From Sedimenticola hydrogenitrophicus (GTDB taxonomy: Bacteria; Pseudomonadota; Gammaproteobacteria; Chromatiales; Chromatiaceae), in the NCBI RefSeq assembly GCF_029017505.1, contig NZ_JAQGEI010000008.1:62001-126000 (forward strand): 64,000 nucleotides of DNA, read 5' to 3'. The position numbers and the translations under genes are program-made. This document shows positions 15,731-61,705 of this stretch, piece after piece. Each line of letters opens with the position of its first letter. Within the stretch, counting starts at the first letter, position 1. The notes below the pieces were generated by a model. That model was not told the origin of the DNA. It did not search any database and worked only from the letters and a program-made list of their open reading frames with translations.

Positions 15731-16765
15731 CTAGAGCGCCGAGAAATCGAACAGCAGCACATCGGTCACGCTTTTGTGCTCGGCGTACCCCTCGTTGAAG
15801 ATGCCGATCTGGCCTTTGATGGTCGTCCCCGGTTTGAAGACCACATCATCGCCATGGCCGGTATCCAGTTTGCGCTTGAGCTCCAGCTGCCAGTGGCCAT
15901 CCCGCCATACCCCCTTGGCCGCCACGTCACCGATGCTGCCGCTGGGGCCGTCCGTGAACGCGATACCGGGAAGCCGGTCTTCCTGGCGCTGGTTCCGGTT
16001 GGGCCGGGTGTTTTCAAACCCGGCCAGTCCGGCGTCCGGGGATTTCTGGATGTAGACCGTCGCGCCGCCGGGGGTCTTGTACTCGGCGGCATTCTCCAGC
16101 CGGCTCAGGGTGATCTTGTGCCACATGTCGGTGGCGTAGTCCCGCAGATTACTGCGCCCGGCCGACCACAACCAGACATCCACGTCGTAATCGGCATCCG
16201 CGATCATGCAGCTATTGAAGTCCCCGGCCATGTCGAAGCGCAGCGCGAACATGTCATCGCGGTCCTTGCCGCGCTGATACTTGTTACGTTTCCACTCCCA
16301 GGGCTTGTACTCCACATCGGCCTTGGCATCGGGCCAGCGCGCGGCGAAATATACCGCGTCGCCGGCAACCCCCGCCTGAACCTCGATAGTCAGGGTGCCG
16401 GTGCGGTTATTGTCGTCACCCTCCATCGCCGGCTTGACCTGCAGCTGGTGCCAGTTATTCCCCCAGTCGGAGAGATCCCCATCGACAGCAGGTGCCGCCG
16501 ACAGGGCACTGACCACCACCGTTTCCCCGGCCAGGGAAGCGGGAGCGGTCAGGCCCATGGTGGCGACGGTGGCGACCAGAAGTGTTGTCCTAAGGACCCG
16601 CGCAAGAATAAGTTCCTGCATTCGGCCGCCCCTGGACCACGCCCGCGGCGTTGCACTTCTTGGCAAGGGAACGGCCATTGCCGGCGAAGCGCGCCTTGCG
16701 GACATGGCCCAGGGACGCCCTCGGTGCCACGGAATTATTCTTGCGCAGGCCCTAAGTCGCTGCAT
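15731..16765 (-). CDS. Ethylbenzene-dehydrogenase-type haem-binding periplasmic protein, with in-frame MITE in its signal region
   Basis: The 344-codon frame has an EB_dh/CBM9-like domain (about residues 80-340; VDGDLSDWGNNWHQL, YFAARWPDAKAD, WLWSAGRSNLRDY), the type that binds b haem in DMSO-reductase-family gamma subunits. The ATG at 16765 has a strong AAGGGG site 10 bp after the cupredoxin stop, so the two form an operon. After five codons (MQRLR) the frame enters a 159-bp MITE (16594-16752), and with the 3-bp duplication it gains exactly 54 codons. Without it, the N-terminus reads MQRLRTTLLVATVATMGLTA, a normal signal peptide. The MITE copy also carries an ATG (16621) preceded by AGGGG that could start a shorter signal peptide. 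The true start is therefore uncertain. Confidence 0.85.
   Translation of the reverse strand: MQRLRACARIIPWHRGRPWAMSARRASPAMAVPLPRSATPRAWSRGGRMQELILARVLRTTLLVATVATMGLTAPASLAGETVVVSALSAAPAVDGDLSDWGNNWHQLQVKPAMEGDDNNRTGTLTIEVQAGVAGDAVYFAARWPDAKADVEYKPWEWKRNKYQRGKDRDDMFALRFDMAGDFNSCMIADADYDVDVWLWSAGRSNLRDYATDMWHKITLSRLENAAEYKTPGGATVYIQKSPDAGLAGFENTRPNRNQRQEDRLPGIAFTDGPSGSIGDVAAKGVWRDGHWQLELKRKLDTGHGDDVVFKPGTTIKGQIGIFNEGYAEHKSVTDVLLFDFSAL
16594..16752. mobile_element. MITE family A, copy 1 (in-frame inside the EB_dh gene)
   Basis: This 159-bp, almost wholly palindromic element has ends matching GGGCCCGCGCAAGAATAA (one mismatch at the left end, one at the right) and is flanked by a TAA direct repeat (16591-16593 and 16753-16755). 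It encodes no protein of its own. Related copies are at 42348, 61547, 47889 (truncated) and 63979 (cut by the window end). A 2-4 bp T-N-A target is typical of some IS5-family groups, so mobilisation by such a transposase is a guess. Confidence 0.88.
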
Positions 16766-16775
16766 GACGTGCCCC

Positions 16776-17231
16776 TTAGTTAACCACGATCAGGTCATCC
16801 ATGCCTTCTTCGCGATGGTTGTCGATGGTGCAGTAGACCGGGAACTCGCCCTTGTTGTGCGCGACAAAATAGAGATCCAGCTGGCCGCCGGGGAGGATCT
16901 CGAAGGCGTTGAAGTAATCGGCCTTGATCTCGGCCTGGCCATTGACCTGGGCCTTGCGGGTGGCGATGTTCTTAAAGAATTCGGGGGCGGTGAAGTAGTG
17001 CTTCTTCTCGCCGATGTTTTTCATCTCCAGCTTGTAGGTCTGGCCTGCCTGCAGTGTCAGGTTGGCGTCGTAGGAGAACTCATCGATGTTGACGGTGACG
17101 GTCTTCATCGCATCCCAGTCGGCGTTCTTGACCATCTCCTGGTACTCTTTCGCCGACTCGGCGACCGCTGTCAGGCTGGCGCCGGAAATCACCAGGGCCA
17201 CGGCCAGTTTAGTCAATCTCTTGTTCATCAT
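16776..17231 (-). CDS. Periplasmic cupredoxin-domain protein
   Basis: This 151-residue protein has a signal peptide (MNKRLTKLAVALVISGASLTAVA), then about 125 residues of cupredoxin beta-sandwich. Candidate type-1 copper ligands are His in EKKHYF, then Cys, His and Met in VYCTIDNHREEGM. The fold resembles the plastocyanin/EfeO-type Cupredoxin_1 family. A GGGAGC ribosome site precedes the ATGATG start. It lies 10 bp upstream of the EB_dh-type haem protein and 60 bp downstream of a haem chemoreceptor. A shuttle between a haem protein and another redox enzyme is a reasonable inference. Confidence 0.87.
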   Translation of the reverse strand: MMNKRLTKLAVALVISGASLTAVAESAKEYQEMVKNADWDAMKTVTVNIDEFSYDANLTLQAGQTYKLEMKNIGEKKHYFTAPEFFKNIATRKAQVNGQAEIKADYFNAFEILPGGQLDLYFVAHNKGEFPVYCTIDNHREEGMDDLIVVN

Positions 17232-17291
17232 TTGCTCCCAAAGGTAAAGGTTTGATCACTGCTTGGTGGCCTGGCTTGCAGCCGGACCCGT

Positions 17292-18947
17292 TCATAGTCG
17301 AAACTGACCCACCAGCCGTTCCAGCTGATCGACCAGTCGAGCCAGCTCGGCGCTGCGCTCGTAGGCCGACTCGGCCTGTCCGGTGGTGACCTCGGCTTCC
17401 CGGCTGATGCTGACCACCGCCTGGTTGATCTCCTCGGTCACCCGCGAATTCTCCTCCATCGCCTGGGCGATGACGGTGTTGATCTGCACAATCTGGTGCG
17501 CCGCACTGGTGATACTCACCAGCGACTCACCGGAGCGATCGGCCTTGGTCATGCTGGCGTCGGCCTCCTGCAGACACTCCTGCATGAGCACGCCGACGGC
17601 GCCGCTATTACCCTGCAGCCGCTCGATAAAACCCTGTATATCAATGGTGGATTTGCGCGTCCGTCCCGCCAGGTTCCGCACCTCGTCGGCCACCACGGCA
17701 AAGCCACGGCCATGCTCGCCGGCCCGCGCCGCCTCGATACTGGCATTGAGCGCCAGCAGGTTGGTCTGGTCGGCGATGCCCTGAATCATGGTCAGGATGC
17801 TGCCGATATGATCCACGTCCCCGCCCAGGTTCGACATGGCGGTGTTGGCGGTCGCGATCTTCTCCTTGAGGTGATGAATCGCCTGAATGGTCTGATCCAC
17901 ATCGCTCCGCCCCGTCTCGGCGATGCTATCCACCCGGCGGGCCTCCTCCATGGCGCGCTCGGCGCTGGTGGTCACCTCCTCCACCGTGGCGGCCATTTCG
18001 GTCATCGAGAAAACCGCCCGCTCGATCTGATTGCGCTGCTGTTCGGTGGCGGCCTGGGTATCGGAGGAGATCGACTTGACCTGGTCGGCCAGGGTGTTGA
18101 GCGAGGCGGCCCAGCCGGCCACCTCGCTGATGGTCTGGCGGATCTTGCTGACAAAGGTATTGAAACCACTGGCCAGTTGGGCCACTTCGTCACGGCCTCT
18201 GACCGGCAGCGACACGGTGAGGTCACCCTCGCCGGTGGCAATGTTCTGCATCTGCTGGGCGGCGCCAAGGATCGGCAGGGAGATGCGCCGTATCAGCACG
18301 CCCATCATGCCAATCACCACCAGGGTGATCAGCCCGATTCCCACCGCCAGGGCAATCCAGGTATGCCGAATCTCCTCATGTACCGGTGCCAGCGAGGTGG
18401 TCAGTTTAATCACTCCGCGCACTGTGTGGTCGGAGCCGTGACAGTTATGGCACTCCGCGCGGTTCTCAACCGGGGTGAGGAAGGTCAGCAGGGGTTCGCC
18501 GTCTGGGCCCGTCTCCTGGTAGCTCTGGGTTTGCAGGGTCTCCAGCGCCGCCTTGAAGCTGGGATGCTCCTTGTCCAGGATGTCCACCCGCTGCTCCTGG
18601 TCCCGGGGGATGAACTCCTCTTCACCAATGCGGCGGTTGACCACGTCGATGGTGGCATTCTGCTGGAAGGCCTCGTAGCCGTCACGGTGCAGAATGCGGA
18701 AATCGGTAACGCCATCCACCTTTTTCAGATTTTTGGCCAGCTCCAGGGCGATATCGGCATAACCGGCCAGCATGATGGTCTGCACGCTCTGGCTGGTGGT
18801 CTCCGTAAGGTGTAACAGCTGCCGTTGGTTCTGCGCCAGAATGCTGCGCTCCTGCTCCTGGGTGAAATAGAAGGCGATGGCGGACATCGCCAGCAGCAGG
18901 CAGGAGACCACACTGGCGAGGATCTTGTAACCGATATGCCTATTCAT
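17292..18947 (-). CDS. Methyl-accepting chemotaxis protein with periplasmic c-haem sensor domain
   Basis: This 551-residue receptor has transmembrane helices at about 8-28 and 196-219. The periplasmic region between them contains one covalent haem motif, CHNCH (166-170), in a Tll0287/DUF3365-like setting ([19 protein letters not shown]). HAMP (about 220-275) and a full MCP signalling domain follow, with the hairpin tip [22 protein letters not shown] region and flanking coiled coil. C-haem chemoreceptors are known in Geobacter as redox or gas sensors. The downstream cupredoxin and EB_dh-type protein are on the same strand, 60 bp away, so the receptor may sense the redox state of that pathway. 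Confidence 0.93.
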
Positions 18948-25844: not shown

Positions 25845-25936
25845 AAGCGCCTGTCGGGAAATCGGTTGTCTGTGCCGGCGGATGCACCGGGGGCGGAGTC
25901 AGATTGAGTCGATATAGTGAACCACAACGCTCAATA

Positions 25937-26143
25937 GTAACTACTCACCCGGTCTGTAAGTGATTGGCCTGCCTTGCCGGCCTCACACGATGGCTTATCT
26001 CCTCGAATCCGGCCCCTTTTTCAGCGCCTGCCCAAACTCGCTTCGCTCAAACAATGGCAGGCTTGAATCTGAAAAAAGGGCCGGATTCGAGGCGCCATCA
26101 AGATCGGCCAACAAGGCAGGCCAATCACCCCGTGAGTAGTTAC
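25937..26143. mobile_element. MITE family B, copy 1 (8-bp target duplication)
   Basis: This 207-bp imperfect palindrome has terminal inverted repeats GTAACTACTCAC and a perfect 8-bp direct repeat GCTCAATA on both sides (25929-25936 and 26144-26151). Internal arms GATTGGCCTGCCTTG and CGAATCCGGCCC flank a small central loop. Terminal GTAA with an 8-bp duplication is the pattern of IS66-family elements, so an IS66-type transposase in trans is the likely mover (inference). It fills most of the gap between the HDOD and hydrolase genes. Confidence 0.9.
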
Positions 26144-26272
26144 GCTCAATATTCAAATCAATATGCCGCCGACCCATCCACGTCCCTTCAGGAAATTCGC
26201 TCCCCGGGAGCCCGGCCTGCTGCTAAACTGCCGTCGGAACGACCCGGGTGCAACAAGGGATGCCGAATTGAG

Positions 26273-36419: not shown

Positions 36420-36422
36420 TCC

Positions 36423-36629
36423 GTAACTACTCATGGGGTGATTGGCCTGCCTTGTTGGCCGATCTTGGTGGCGCCTCGAATCCGGCCCCTTTTTCAGATT
36501 GAAGCCTGCCCTTGTTTGAGCGAAGCGAGTTTGGGCAGGCGCTGAAAAAGGGGCCGGATTCGAGGAGACAAGCCATCGTGTGAGGCCGGCAAGACAGGCC
36601 AATCACTTACAGACCGAGTGAGTTGTTAC
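36423..36629. mobile_element. MITE family B, copy 2 (at the queE stop codon)
   Basis: This 207-bp element is the same length as copy 1 but in the opposite orientation. Ends match GTAACTACTCA with small differences, and a perfect 8-bp direct repeat AATAATCC (36415-36422 and 36630-36637) flanks it. The left duplication contains the queE stop codon. The palindromic element separates queE from queC, so it may end or stabilise the upstream transcript. Confidence 0.9.
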
Positions 36630-36677
36630 AATAATCCCAACCTGACGCATTCCAGCTTGACCGATTGAAGTGACGTG

Positions 36678-38800: not shown

Positions 38801-38876
38801 GGGCCGTTAGCTCAGTCGGTAGAGCAGTGGATTTTTAATCCATTGGTCGTAGGTTCGAATCCTACACGGCCCACCA
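38801..38876 (+). tRNA. tRNA-Lys (anticodon TTT)
   Basis: This 76-nt tRNA has a seven-base acceptor stem (GGGCCGT with ACGGCCC), D arm, an anticodon stem GTGGA/TCCAT enclosing loop TTTTTAA (anticodon TTT), T arm GTAGG-TTCGAAT-CCTAC and an encoded CCA end. An intrinsic terminator follows at 38890. Confidence 0.97.
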
Positions 38877-39224
38877 TTCTCATTCGAAGCCCGGACCCCG
38901 CGTCCGGGTTTTTTTGTTTCCGACAACGCGATTCAAGCCTACGACTTCAAACAGCCAGGTTCGACAGCGGAGCTGCATGAGGGCGCGCAGCGACCGAATC
39001 ATCCTACACGGCCCACCATTCTCATTCGAAGCCCGGACCCCGCGTCCGGGTTTTTTTGTTTCCGACAACGCGATTCGAACCTGCGACTTCAAACAGCCAG
39101 GTTCGACAGCGGAGCTGCGTGAGGGCGCGCAGCGACCGAATCATCCCGCCCACCACTCTTATTCGAAACCCGGACCCCGCGTCCGGGTTTTTTGTTTCCG
39201 AAAACGCAATTCGAACCTGCGACG
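38869..39224 (+). repeat. Three tandem copies of a ~140-bp unit carrying the tRNA-Lys 3' end and terminator
   Basis: The tRNA-Lys 3' end GCCCACCA (38869-38876) and the following ~120 bp are repeated from 39011 (offset 142) and again, diverged, from 39148 (offset 137). Each unit holds CCCGGAC-CCCGC-GTCCGGG plus a T-run and then a stretch including CAGCGGAGCTGC. The second copy keeps CCTACACGGCCCACCA. The third ends at the fnr stop codon. No protein is encoded; the frames crossing it are not genes. Confidence 0.88.
38890..38915 (+). terminator. Rho-independent terminator of tRNA-Lys
   Basis: Stem CCCGGAC (38890-38896) pairs with GTCCGGG (38902-38908) around loop CCCGC and is followed by seven T residues (38909-38915). 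Equivalent hairpins occur at 39032-39057 and 39169-39193 in the tandem copies. Confidence 0.9.
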
Positions 39225-39968
39225 TCAAACCCAGAGAGCGGAGAGCAACACCTCTTCGTTACCCTGGATCTCGATCTCCCGGGAGCGGTTACGGATAATC
39301 CCCGCCTCCTGCAGCCTGGAGAGGGCCCGGCTGAGGGATTCCGGCCGCAGACCGAGATGGATGGCGATATCACCCTTGGTCATGGGCAGGGTGACGGTTC
39401 TTCTGCCGTCGCTGGTCATGATGCCCTTGCGTTGGTAGAGATCGTTCAGGAACAGCAGAAAGCGCCGGTCCGCGCTGAGATAGCGTCCCTGCACGATGGT
39501 CCGGTTGGTGTAGCGGATGCGTTTGCCCAGCAGTTCCAGTATTTCATGCTGGAGCTCGGGGATCTGGCTGCAGAGCGTCTCGATCTGTTGAAACGGCAGT
39601 TCGCAGATCCAGGTGTTCTCCAGTGCCACGGCATCATTCTGATATTGGACATCACCCACCGCCTCGATGCCGATCAGTTCACCGCTGAAATAGAAACCGT
39701 GGATCACCGGTGTGCCGTCATCCAGGGAGGATTCGAGTTTCACCGAGCCGGACTGGATGGCGAAGATGGACTTGAACGGGTCTTCCATCCGGAAGATGGT
39801 TTCACCGGGTTTGTAGGGACCGCGTTTACGGATGATGCCGGTGATACTGTCGGTCTGGCTCCTATCCAGGTTGGTGCCGATACACTTCCTGGGCAGCGAG
39901 CAGGAGTTGCAGTCCCGATCGTTGTTGATCAGATGCAGACCACAGGTGCCGCTTTTTTTTTGTGCCAT
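39225..39968 (-). CDS. fnr: FNR-type anaerobic transcription regulator
   Basis: This 247-residue Crp/Fnr protein has the four iron-sulfur ligands at exactly the E. coli numbering: C20, C23, C29 and C122 (DCNSCSLPRKC; WICELP), with an extra C9. The cAMP-type fold follows, then a helix-turn-helix with E210, S213, R214 (PESLSRALS), which predicts recognition of TTGAT-N4-ATCAA. It should be an O2-labile [4Fe-4S] switch. The C-terminus abuts the last tandem repeat of the tRNA-Lys region. No clear FNR box was found near the hemerythrin genes. Confidence 0.95.
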   Translation of the reverse strand: MAQKKSGTCGLHLINNDRDCNSCSLPRKCIGTNLDRSQTDSITGIIRKRGPYKPGETIFRMEDPFKSIFAIQSGSVKLESSLDDGTPVIHGFYFSGELIGIEAVGDVQYQNDAVALENTWICELPFQQIETLCSQIPELQHEILELLGKRIRYTNRTIVQGRYLSADRRFLLFLNDLYQRKGIMTSDGRRTVTLPMTKGDIAIHLGLRPESLSRALSRLQEAGIIRNRSREIEIQGNEEVLLSALWV

Positions 39969-42280: not shown

Positions 42281-42347
42281 GCCAGGTAGTATAAACAACC
42301 GCGGGATCGCGTGGCAGCGGCTGTGCAAGCGGCACGGACATGCTAAG

Positions 42348-42505
42348 GGCCCGCGCAAGAATAAGTTCCTGTATTCGGTCGCCCCTGGACCCCGCTGGCG
42401 GCGTTACGCTTTTTGGCAAGGGAACAGCCATTGCCTGCAAAGCGTGCCTTGCCAGCGGGGCCCAGGAACGCCCTCGGTACTACGGAATTATTCTTGCGCG
42501 GGCCC
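42348..42505. mobile_element. MITE family A, copy 2
   Basis: This 158-bp palindromic element has perfect ends GGGCCCGCGCAAGAATAA and reverse complement, flanked by TAA (42345-42347 and 42506-42508). It sits between the divergent tatD and xthA genes, so it is the best-preserved intergenic copy. Where copy 1 has an ATG, this copy reads ATA (on the minus strand), supporting a later mutation in copy 1. Confidence 0.92.
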
Positions 42506-46466: not shown

Positions 46467-47888
46467 ATGGATCCGCTGATACAACAAGTGATGTATTACC
46501 GTGATGCCATCCTGCTGCTCGGGGCGCTGCTGCTCCTGCTGCTGGGCGGGGGGCTGTGGCGACGGCAAGCGGCACTCTCCGCGCGACTGGAGGGGCAGGG
46601 GCTGCGCACCCAGGCCGATGCCGAGCGTCTTGAAGCGCTGGTGCGCGAGCAGGGGCGCCAGCTCACCCAGCTGTTGCTGGACGACCGGGATCGGCAAGGG
46701 GAAGTGGCCCATCGGCTGCAACAGCAGCTGCAGCGCCAGACGGCCCACTCCCACCAGGCCCTGGAGCGGCGGCTGGGGGAGTTGCAGCAGGCGCTGCTTC
46801 AGGACAGCGGTCACCTCAAGGTCAAACTGACGGAACGCTTCGAGCAGTTGCAGCAGCGTCTCGCCCAGTCCCTCGCCGAGGGCCGGATCGCCCAGCAGGA
46901 GGGGTTGGCGCAGGGGCTTGAAGGACTCGGGCGCCAGCTGATGGAGGGACTTTCCCGCACCACCGAGTCGCTGAACGCCCAGGTTGCCCGGCTGACCGAA
47001 AGCACCGATCAGCGGCTGAAGGAGATCGGCGGCCTGGTTGAAAAACGCCTCAGCGAGGGCTTCGAGAAGAGCAACGAGACCTTCAACCGGGTGCTGCAGC
47101 ACCTCTCCCGGATCGACGAGGCGCAGAAGCGGATCACCGAGCTCTCATCCAACGTGGTCAGCCTGCAGGAGGTGCTGGCCGACAAGCGCTCGCGCGGGGC
47201 CTTCGGCGAAGTGCAGCTGAACGCACTGGTGGCCAACCTGATGCCGGAGAACAGCTATGCGCTGCAATATACCCTCGGCAACCAGACCCGGGTGGACTGC
47301 ATGCTGTTTCTGCCCGAGCCCAGCGGTCATATCGCCATCGATGCGAAATTTCCCCTGGAGAGTTATCGGCGCATGACCGACATCCAGGCCCCGGACGCGG
47401 AGCGGAACCGCGCCGCCAGCCAGTTCCGCCAGGATATCCGCAAACATATCGACGACATCGCTGACAAGTATATCCTCCCCGGGGAGACCGCCGACGGGGC
47501 GGTGATGTTTATCCCCGCCGAGGCGGTCTTTGCCGAGATCCACGGCCACTACCCCGATCTGGTGGAGGCGGCTTGCCGGCGGCGCGTCTGGCTGGTCTCC
47601 CCCACCACCCTGATGGCGATACTGACCACCGCGCGGGCCGTGCTCAAGGATGCCGATACCCGTGAACAGCTGCACCTGATCCAGCACCATCTGCACCTGC
47701 TGTCCAAGGATTTCGGCCGTTTCCGCGGACGCATGGACAAGCTCGCGGTGCATATCCGCCAGGCCCATGACGACGTGAAGGATGTGAGTATCTCGGCCCA
47801 GAAGATCAGCAAGCGCTTCGGCCAGATCGAGCGGGTCGAGCTGGCCGACCTGCCCGTGCCGGAGGGCCTGGAAGAGGCTGACGGCTAA
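46467..47888 (+). CDS. rmuC: RmuC-family DNA recombination protein
   Basis: This 473-residue protein has an N-terminal transmembrane helix (about 13-30), a long coiled coil (about 35-235, Gln/Arg/Leu-rich) and the conserved RmuC endonuclease-like domain (about 250-440; RGAFGEVQLNALVANLMPE, GHIAIDAKFPLESYRRM, VMFIPAEAVFAEI, SPTTLMAIL). RmuC limits recombination at short inverted repeats, which is apt in a palindrome-rich genome. The start follows AAGGGA. Its TAA stop (47886-47888) is the target site of a truncated family A MITE. Confidence 0.94.
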   Translation: MDPLIQQVMYYRDAILLLGALLLLLLGGGLWRRQAALSARLEGQGLRTQADAERLEALVREQGRQLTQLLLDDRDRQGEVAHRLQQQLQRQTAHSHQALERRLGELQQALLQDSGHLKVKLTERFEQLQQRLAQSLAEGRIAQQEGLAQGLEGLGRQLMEGLSRTTESLNAQVARLTESTDQRLKEIGGLVEKRLSEGFEKSNETFNRVLQHLSRIDEAQKRITELSSNVVSLQEVLADKRSRGAFGEVQLNALVANLMPENSYALQYTLGNQTRVDCMLFLPEPSGHIAIDAKFPLESYRRMTDIQAPDAERNRAASQFRQDIRKHIDDIADKYILPGETADGAVMFIPAEAVFAEIHGHYPDLVEAACRRRVWLVSPTTLMAILTTARAVLKDADTREQLHLIQHHLHLLSKDFGRFRGRMDKLAVHIRQAHDDVKDVSISAQKISKRFGQIERVELADLPVPEGLEEADG

Positions 47889-47947
47889 GGACCCGCGCAA
47901 GAACAAGCTCCTGTATTCGGTCGCCCCTGGACCCCCGCTGTCGGCGC
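47889..47947. mobile_element. MITE family A, truncated copy 4 at the rmuC stop codon
   Basis: The first 59 bp match family A copies 1 and 2 (GGACCCGCGCAAGAA start, CCTGTATTCGGTCGCCCCTGG), immediately after the rmuC TAA, which serves as the target-site TAA. The rest of the element and its right end are absent; unrelated sequence with short CTCCATCCCTGGAG palindromes follows to 48014. Confidence 0.8.
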
Positions 47948-61362: not shown

Positions 61363-61547
61363 TGCCCGGCCCGCGGGATAGTTTGGGCTGCATCTGGGCA
61401 GTGGATTTCCGCTACGGCGATCAGGATGAAGCTATGAGTGCCGTCCGCCAGCGACAGATGGTCAAGCGCCGGAAAAACACGGCAGTGATGACAGGAATCG
61501 CTCTGCTATCATCACTACCGTTGGCATCACTGCCGTTGGCAGCTTAG
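61359..61547 (+). CDS. Short hypothetical reading frame interrupted by a MITE
   Basis: This 62-codon frame overlaps the trkA-like stop and ends at a TAG formed at the MITE junction (TTA target plus the first G). It has a basic middle and a hydrophobic end (GIALLSSLPLASLPLAA). It could be a truncated gene or chance; codon use gives no clear support. Treat as doubtful. Confidence 0.25.
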   Translation: MMPGPRDSLGCIWAVDFRYGDQDEAMSAVRQRQMVKRRKNTAVMTGIALLSSLPLASLPLAA

Positions 61548-61705
61548 GGTTCGCGCAAGAATAATTCCGTAGTACCGAGGGCGTCACTGGGCCCCGCCGT
61601 CAAGGCACGCTTTGCAGGCAATGGCTGTTCCCTTGCCAAAAAGCGTAACGCCGACGGCGGGGTCCAGTGGCGACCGAATACCGGAACTTATTCTTGCGCG
61701 AGCCC
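61547..61705. mobile_element. MITE family A, copy 3 (at the stop codon of the DsrC-like gene)
   Basis: This 159-bp element is in the opposite orientation to copies 1 and 2. Its ends read GGGTTCGCGCAAGAATAA and GAGCCC-type, flanked by TTA on both sides (61544-61546 and 61706-61708). The right TTA is the TAA stop codon of the minus-strand DsrC-like gene. It is palindromic along nearly all its length and may form a hairpin at that transcript's 3' end. Confidence 0.9.

Follow-up and report, generated by a model that had tools for sequence, protein, structure and literature searches.

The 64,000-nucleotide stretch of DNA analyzed here (the window) carries an EB_dh gene whose signal-peptide region is interrupted by a MITE, and the question raised by this locus is whether such a gene can still give rise to its exported protein and, if so, from which start codon.

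Insertion of a MITE in the EB_dh signal peptide

The locus is arranged as follows, in window coordinates:

15731..16765, minus strand: EB_dh gene (ethylbenzene dehydrogenase-like, haem-binding family, PF09459), 344 codons, with the MITE in its signal-peptide region
16529..16591, minus strand: hydrophobic core and probable cleavage region RTTLLVATVATMGLTAPASLA, residues 59-79, cleavage site assigned by eye
16591..16593: target-site duplication, copy 1, TAA (plus strand)
16594..16752, minus strand: MITE, 159 bp, one long imperfect hairpin; 54 in-frame codons together with the duplication
16619..16621, minus strand: in-frame ATG at residue 49, within the element, a trait of the subfamily
16629..16633, minus strand: AGGGG ahead of the internal ATG (7 nt before 16621-16619), buried in the hairpin
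16753..16755: target-site duplication, copy 2, TAA (plus strand)
16763..16765, minus strand: original start codon ATG, the same start as in the orthologue L071
16772..16777, minus strand: original ribosome site AAGGGG, 6 nt before the ATG at 16765, overlapping the cupredoxin stop
16776..17231, minus strand: cupredoxin-like gene upstream of EB_dh (match below the Pfam cut-off); the L071 orthologue is in the same order
17292..18947, minus strand: methyl-accepting chemotaxis protein (MCP), class 40H sensor, in the same order in L071

In a Pfam profile search the 344-residue product matched PF09459 at 72.6 bits (cut-off, 33.3). TIGR03477 gave a weak match of 27.5 bits, under its cut-off of 169.85, and a PDB sequence search with the product returned no solved relative up to E 0.1. 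Binding of haem b is predicted from family membership.

The MITE was found to lie in frame inside the signal-peptide region, as the preliminary description had proposed; it follows codon 4 and precedes the hydrophobic core. This is supported by terminal inverted repeats (TIRs) of 18 bp that are alike at 16 of 18 positions (GGGCCTGCGCAAGAATAA / GGACCCGCGCAAGAATAA), by the TAA duplication, and by the intact frame. Excision of the element and one TAA copy, which had been said to restore a signal peptide, indeed gives the N terminus MQRLRTTLLVATVATMGLTAPASLAGE, with a basic n-region, a hydrophobic core, and small residues ahead of the cleavage site, as judged from sequence and hydropathy. The element and the duplication (159 + 3 = 162 bp) add 54 stop-free codons to the frame 16765-15731 (minus strand).

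Ancestral form of the gene

An EB_dh orthologue was identified in Motiliproteus sp. SC1-56 (L071), the single confirmed hit in GTDB contigs by a pattern search whose reach is limited to close relatives. There, MCP, cupredoxin, and EB_dh genes are in the same order, 209 of 290 aligned EB_dh residues are identical to those of the window product, and the start is uninterrupted (MKRLNASLLVAAVASTPLIAPAALAE; N terminus, MKRLNASLLVAAVAS). The distant homologues L032-L034 likewise have a short signal peptide, while L035 runs off its contig. Since the starts of L071 and of the distant homologues are short and uninterrupted, the extension is derived. The short ancestral signal peptide suggested earlier was thereby confirmed, and the 54-residue extension that had been named as contrary evidence, if carried by orthologues, was absent from L071 and from L032-L034.

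A long EB_dh match was present in 4 of 92 other genomes, and no relative carrying the insertion was found among these 92 genomes or the GTDB contigs. Eight other genomes of the same genus gave no EB_dh match (22 of 105 candidates scored for G001); two of them, G001 and G003, match via the element only, and the other six gave no match of any kind. A plasmid search detected no EB_dh relatives. The conservation of the MCP with its 40H sensor, the cupredoxin, and EB_dh as a set, both here (15731-18947) and in Motiliproteus, was noted separately; the set is perhaps a transferred periplasmic redox-sensing unit.

The element family and its subfamilies

The genome to which the window belongs (G000; 5.13 Mb, 116 contigs) was searched together with the congeneric G001 and G003. 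The element search in G000 gave 147 first-look candidates, 40 of which were scored, and 41 matches. TIR-like ends with at most two mismatches numbered 165 in G000 (80 + 85), compared to 0 + 0 for a reversed control pattern; the exact inner TIR 10-mers occurred at the same spacing in 21 copies, and the family is not a product of chance. The copy set consisted of 137 distinct near-complete copies (73 from G000, 63 from G001, and 1 from G003), taken from the fetched part of these genomes' copies after partial hits and hits close to locus ends had been dropped. Exactly 159 bp was the length of 110 of the 137, so that the 54 stop-free codons, correctly counted in the preliminary description, are a property of the family and not peculiar to the EB_dh site. 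Perfect TTA/TTA or TAA/TAA duplications flanked 95 copies, and at these 95 sites the target was C-TTA-R, with C before in 68% and G or A after in 83%.

The full-length element forms a single hairpin (-109.6 kcal/mol; fold z-score, -6.3) and has room for no more than 53 codons in any one frame, hence no transposase of its own. Being short, with TIRs, a target duplication, dispersed high copy number, no transposase, and empty sites, it is a bacterial MITE. An autonomous partner, which might carry an IS5-like transposase, was not found in a limited search of the genome for DDE_Tnp_1 (one match in G000) and of the fetched loci for TIR pairs. The only pair more than 300 bp apart, at L110, was rejected as an autonomous element; its two element ends surround an adenylate kinase-like sequence. 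Rfam returned only a sub-threshold miRNA match.

Further copies of the family were located in the window:

42347..42505, minus strand: 159-bp copy, lying upstream of a gene that by eye resembles exonuclease III
61547..61705, plus strand: 159-bp copy
63979: copy truncated by the window end

In addition, 52 bp at 47884-47935 resemble one MITE end and are perhaps a truncated copy. The inner core of the element (positions 54-107; window 16646-16699) was found at 81-89% identity in other genera among the best matches (L064-L070). The ends of these repeats differ from those of the element, and the core may thus be common to a wider family; a plasmid search with the element detected the core alone, in one Azotobacter plasmid. 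At two sites common to G000 and G001, a 159-bp copy in the former is matched by a 211-bp copy in the latter (L009:1502-1660 versus L207:1387-1597, and L023:1503-1661 versus L213:1516-1726), the flanks being the same in both cases. Each pair differs by 52 gap columns and 2 substitutions, a pattern that suggests conversion between copies.

In the EB_dh frame, the family consensus has one stop, TAG. Among 44 copies of exactly 159 bp, this codon was TAG in 33, CAG in 9, and TGG in 2, and 11 of the 44 were stop-free. The window copy forms a clade with L002 on contig C11 (support, 100/99), defined by 16 common changes from the consensus that include TAG to TGG and the A-to-G change making the internal ATG. 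Both traits therefore came with the subfamily, and the EB_dh frame is open because the element and duplication amount to 162 bp and the subfamily lacks the frame-closing TAG. The ATG had been described as confined to this copy, which holds among the full copies in the window but not in the wider set, where the G was present in 3 of 47 aligned copies (the window copy, L002, and L027, the last outside the clade). Its origin by a base change in the window copy, also proposed earlier, was rejected because the sister copy L002 has the ATG too.

Recurrence in signal peptides

The frames collected opened at a start codon, passed through a copy without meeting a stop, and had 60 or more codons beyond the copy or 100 or more ahead of it. 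Events were picked from the resulting 59 by eye, from start-codon position and hydropathy; Pfam was applied to 28, and the other 31 were judged by eye only. Fourteen in-frame intragenic events were recognized among the 137 copies from the three congeneric genomes, and 11 of these were in signal peptides. The 14 events, with the evidence for each signal-peptide case, are the following:

EB_dh (L001): signal peptide; relative without insert
LptA (L012): signal peptide; relative without insert
Cytochrome cd1-like (L013 and L036): signal peptide; relative without insert
M16 peptidase (L121 and L203): signal peptide; relative without insert
MscK-like (L118): signal peptide, GTG start; relative without insert
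Protein of unknown family (L196): signal peptide, no Pfam match; relative without insert
TlpA/ResA-like (L098): signal peptide, 210-bp copy; relative without insert
Ankyrin lipoprotein (L198): signal peptide; N-terminal pattern
Multihaem cytochrome (L057): signal peptide, GTG start; N-terminal pattern
L015/L177 protein: signal peptide, GTG start (L015), no Pfam match; N-terminal pattern
L191 protein: signal peptide, 144-bp copy, no Pfam match; N-terminal pattern
2Fe-2S ferredoxin (L128:1463-1969): not a signal peptide; 54-codon in-frame insert separating the cluster-loop motifs CGEG and CGNC
Kinase with APH-like (below cut-off) and AAA_33 parts (L173:803-2545, G001): insert mid-gene
SLT_2 transglycosylase (L162): insert at the C terminus

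Relatives without the insert were thus available for 7 of the 11 signal-peptide events, and the other 4 rest on the N-terminal pattern. For the TlpA-like protein the empty site is inexact, as the n-region of the sister sequence differs by a few residues. The ferredoxin represents either a dying gene or a striking case of tolerance. In-frame cases in which the gene's own start, judged by eye, apparently lies after the element were rejected (L009, L027, L028, L117, L125, L164, L167, L184, L199, L200, L202, L207, L212, and L215). Pfam was silent for 9 of the 10 frames of one batch and for L184, L121 (+), and L118 (+), a silence that does not disprove a gene.

Signal-peptide-like segments, defined by a crude rule and ORF calling over 275 ORFs, occupied 2235 of 230,280 bases, or about 1%, so that by area the expected number of the 14 events in signal peptides is about 0.14. 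The target is denser there (1.34 per kb, 3 hits, against 0.26 per kb, 53 hits, and, in other N termini, 0.32 per kb, 8 hits), and with this density the expected number becomes about 0.7. About ten further genes for exported proteins in the genus seem to have undergone the same in-frame insertion, and for six of these an orthologue with the empty site is available. Within genes, the element seems to be tolerated in signal peptides, since the n-region is not bound to a set length and the insert is removed on cleavage. That the family is actually fitted for translation, with signal peptides as its haven, is a tentative and rather doubtful extension of this interpretation. With the duplication, the length of the element is a multiple of three, and in either orientation the consensus has two of its three phases open or almost open; the C-TTA-R target corresponds to Leu, Lys, or Arg codons, and the last codons of the element (..ILARAL, ..IILSLAL) extend the hydrophobic core. 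If correct, the haven would imply a cheap spread through exported proteins and an occasional supply of new export leaders.

Selection after insertion

Three signal-peptide insertions (cd1-like, M16, and L015/L177) are common to G000 and G001, and the sequence differences between these genes must therefore postdate insertion. The dN/dS ratios, calculated by the Nei-Gojobori method with our own script, were 0.148 for the cd1-like gene (1500 nt, 43 synonymous and 22 non-synonymous changes), 0.193 for M16, and 0.183 for L015/L177; the coding part downstream of all three has been under purifying selection since insertion. The 3 differences between the cd1-like element copies were all non-synonymous, so the selection is seen on the gene body rather than the leader. 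Leaders gave no sign of selection either in this pair or in the 5 changes private to the EB_dh copy. The latter fall at codon positions 1, 1, 2, 2, and 3, without bias and with low power, and selection on the leader was rejected as an interpretation of them. Slow evolution of the element was also rejected as a sign of leader function, given the generally low divergence of the 13 common insertions, only 3 of which lie in signal peptides (29 of 1908 bases differ among the 12 with a 159-bp copy in G000); the 40-bp flanks diverge alike, but they had been chosen for similarity above 0.7.

For the insertions found in one species, dN/dS was 0.294 (LptA), 0.177 (L196), 0.184 (TlpA-like), and 0.196 (MscK-like), values that cannot date the selection to after insertion. 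Against Motiliproteus, EB_dh gave 0.22, mostly reflecting pre-insertion time, and its neighbours gave similar values of 0.184 and 0.156; post-insertion selection on EB_dh is unmeasurable because no relative with the insertion was found. The insertion-bearing genes seem to stay functional.

Start codon and fate of the EB_dh product

Our preferred reading, which we consider probable, is that the MITE jumped into the EB_dh signal peptide and is read through from the old ATG as a leader of about 79 residues, leaving the mature protein unchanged, and that such events were repeated across the genus. In this mechanism the non-autonomous element, with its TTA/TAA duplication and C-TTA-R target, would have inserted at codon 4-5 with the frame remaining open. 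Ribosomes would initiate at 16765 and translate through it, giving 4 old, 54 new, and about 21 old residues. The original core and cleavage site would be retained, and export and cleavage would then yield an unaltered, presumably periplasmic, protein. The arginine-rich 54-residue insert is unusual for an n-region and counts against this reading.

The preliminary description had left a long leader and a new start side by side. Initiation at the ATG at 16619-16621 would use the AGGGG and place the element-encoded MQELILARV before the old core, and the resulting 31-residue signal peptide, MQELILARVLRTTLLVATVATMGLTAPASLA, does resemble a normal one. The 7-nt spacing is suitable, and the ATG itself (mean unpaired probability, 0.37, ViennaRNA) could serve as a start after the hairpin has been opened by ribosomes. 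The same calculations, however, gave a mean of 0.00 for the AGGGG, which was fully paired. The old start was roughly as accessible with the element as without: its ribosome site was unpaired at 0.33-0.61 with the element (three windows) versus 0.33-0.49 without it, and the start codon at 0.36-0.47 versus 0.47-0.60. The opening probability of a 16-nt site was about 1e-13 for the internal start, about 2e-4 for the old start, and about 3e-5 for the old start in the empty site. Since the old start is accessible and the internal AGGGG is buried, translation from 16765 was put first, and dominance of the internal start is predicted to be unlikely. The internal ATG is, moreover, a subfamily trait and hence was not made at this site. 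Further evidence came from lptA (L012), a gene essential in most Gram-negative bacteria. Neither its element nor the 12 codons that follow contain an in-frame ATG, GTG, or TTG, which leaves read-through as the only evident route. Its product matched TIGR03002 at 144.4 bits (cut-off, 71.7), the LptA part was covered by only one match in G000 among the matches listed, and an exact empty site is present in G001, the sister species (MKSTLKDPHTRRRW versus MKSTL[54]KDPHARCRW with the insert). The long leader was therefore retained as the best reading, and a functional internal start was judged unlikely. Because both starts keep the same core and cleavage region, either would give the same mature protein, and N-terminal mass spectrometry of that protein is blind to the choice.

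The EB_dh gene could also be silent, and inactivation by the insertion, completed or in progress with the open frame as luck, would fit the stop-free state of 11 of the 44 copies counted above and the failure to find a relative with the insertion. It was deemed quite unlikely in view of the intact 344-codon frame, the PF09459 score over the cut-off, and the purifying selection after insertion in the three sister cases. Alternatively, the element may act mainly as RNA, a hairpin between cupredoxin and EB_dh tuning translation or stability of the latter, with the leader a by-product. About 108 kcal/mol of structure is added right after the start, consistent with the z-score of the fold, and small-repeat hairpins with RNA roles are described for NEMIS in the available part of PMC2229807; such a role would have no need of a conserved frame, yet the frame was kept, and we hold it to be decidedly improbable. 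An assembly artefact, conceivable for a high-copy element in a 116-contig draft, is highly implausible, as the duplication is present in the flanks and each of the three sister signal-peptide insertions was recovered from two separate genomes.

Relation to known elements and leaders

In-frame MITEs are known already, and it is the recurrence in signal peptides that looks new. Rickettsia palindromic elements (RPE) were reportedly described by Ogata et al. in 2000. The available portions of PMC10969869 and PMC2229807 depict them as palindromic mobile elements of about 100-150 bp, located, like the present element, in frame inside many genes, and at least one of the interrupted genes, gmk, still yields its product (PMC2229807). 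In the same portions, RPE lie in unrelated metabolic genes (PMC10969869) and have a duplication marked "?" in Table 1 of PMC2229807, whereas the in-frame insertions of the present element are mostly in signal peptides and its duplication is a clear 3-bp TTA/TAA. It was not filed as an RPE, being set apart by description rather than by sequence. RPE are marked by in-frame insertion into conserved genes with the product kept; in genes carrying the present element, in-frame insertion and purifying selection were seen, and the products would presumably be made.

A signal-peptide case in print is YPAL/RU-2 of Yersinia in YPO1552 (Delihas 2007, PMC2759123), which in the part of that paper available concerns one locus and is read as part of a new protein's emergence. 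In the present family, by contrast, an old signal peptide is split with its core kept, in 11 events, several of them in well-known conserved genes. ERIC/RU-1, NEMIS, and QMITE are likewise small repeats whose open frames have been joined to genes, according to the accessible text (PMC2759123, PMC2229807, PMC5896051). The superfamily-protein fusions given there are placed at C-terminal regions (PMC2759123), unlike the mostly N-terminal events found here, and no QMITE appears, from the excerpt of PMC5896051, to affect the 5' end of known-function genes. Inverted repeats of 57 and 68 bp in the coding regions of two P. aeruginosa haem-enzyme genes, read as evolutionary insertions in the available part of PMC4496055, sit in the mature protein rather than the signal peptide and are assigned there to no transposon family. 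Long working export signals are described for autotransporters, well over the usual 17-24 residues (PMC2805444), and for BKC-1, with a 16-residue h-region duplication (PMC8262980); the accessible portions of these papers name no transposon insertion as the source. In a search mainly of journals outside subscription, no published report was found of repeated signal-peptide insertion by a single MITE family, or of such an insertion in lptA.

The family offers a natural repeated experiment on how far a bacterial signal peptide can be lengthened and remain functional, the start and the core being set apart by about 50 to 71 additional residues. The lengthened leaders include that of lptA, and in three genes they have persisted through the divergence of two species while purifying selection acted on the coding part. 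Signal peptides as a segment tolerating in-frame transposon DNA bear on the question of protein-coding palindromes raised since the RPE work. Start-site callers may trim or misplace the element-bearing genes, which calls for caution in annotation.

Other repeats

A second repeat family of 211 bp was observed in the window at 25934-26144 and 36422-36632, as inverted copies that are 95% complementary with the ends GTAACTACTCAC / GTGAGTAGTTAC. A piece ending in GAGTAGTTAC, as in this family, lies directly before the cd1-like start codon in L013 and L036. Tandem 142-bp units were present at 38859-39230, two of them 97% alike and the third partial.
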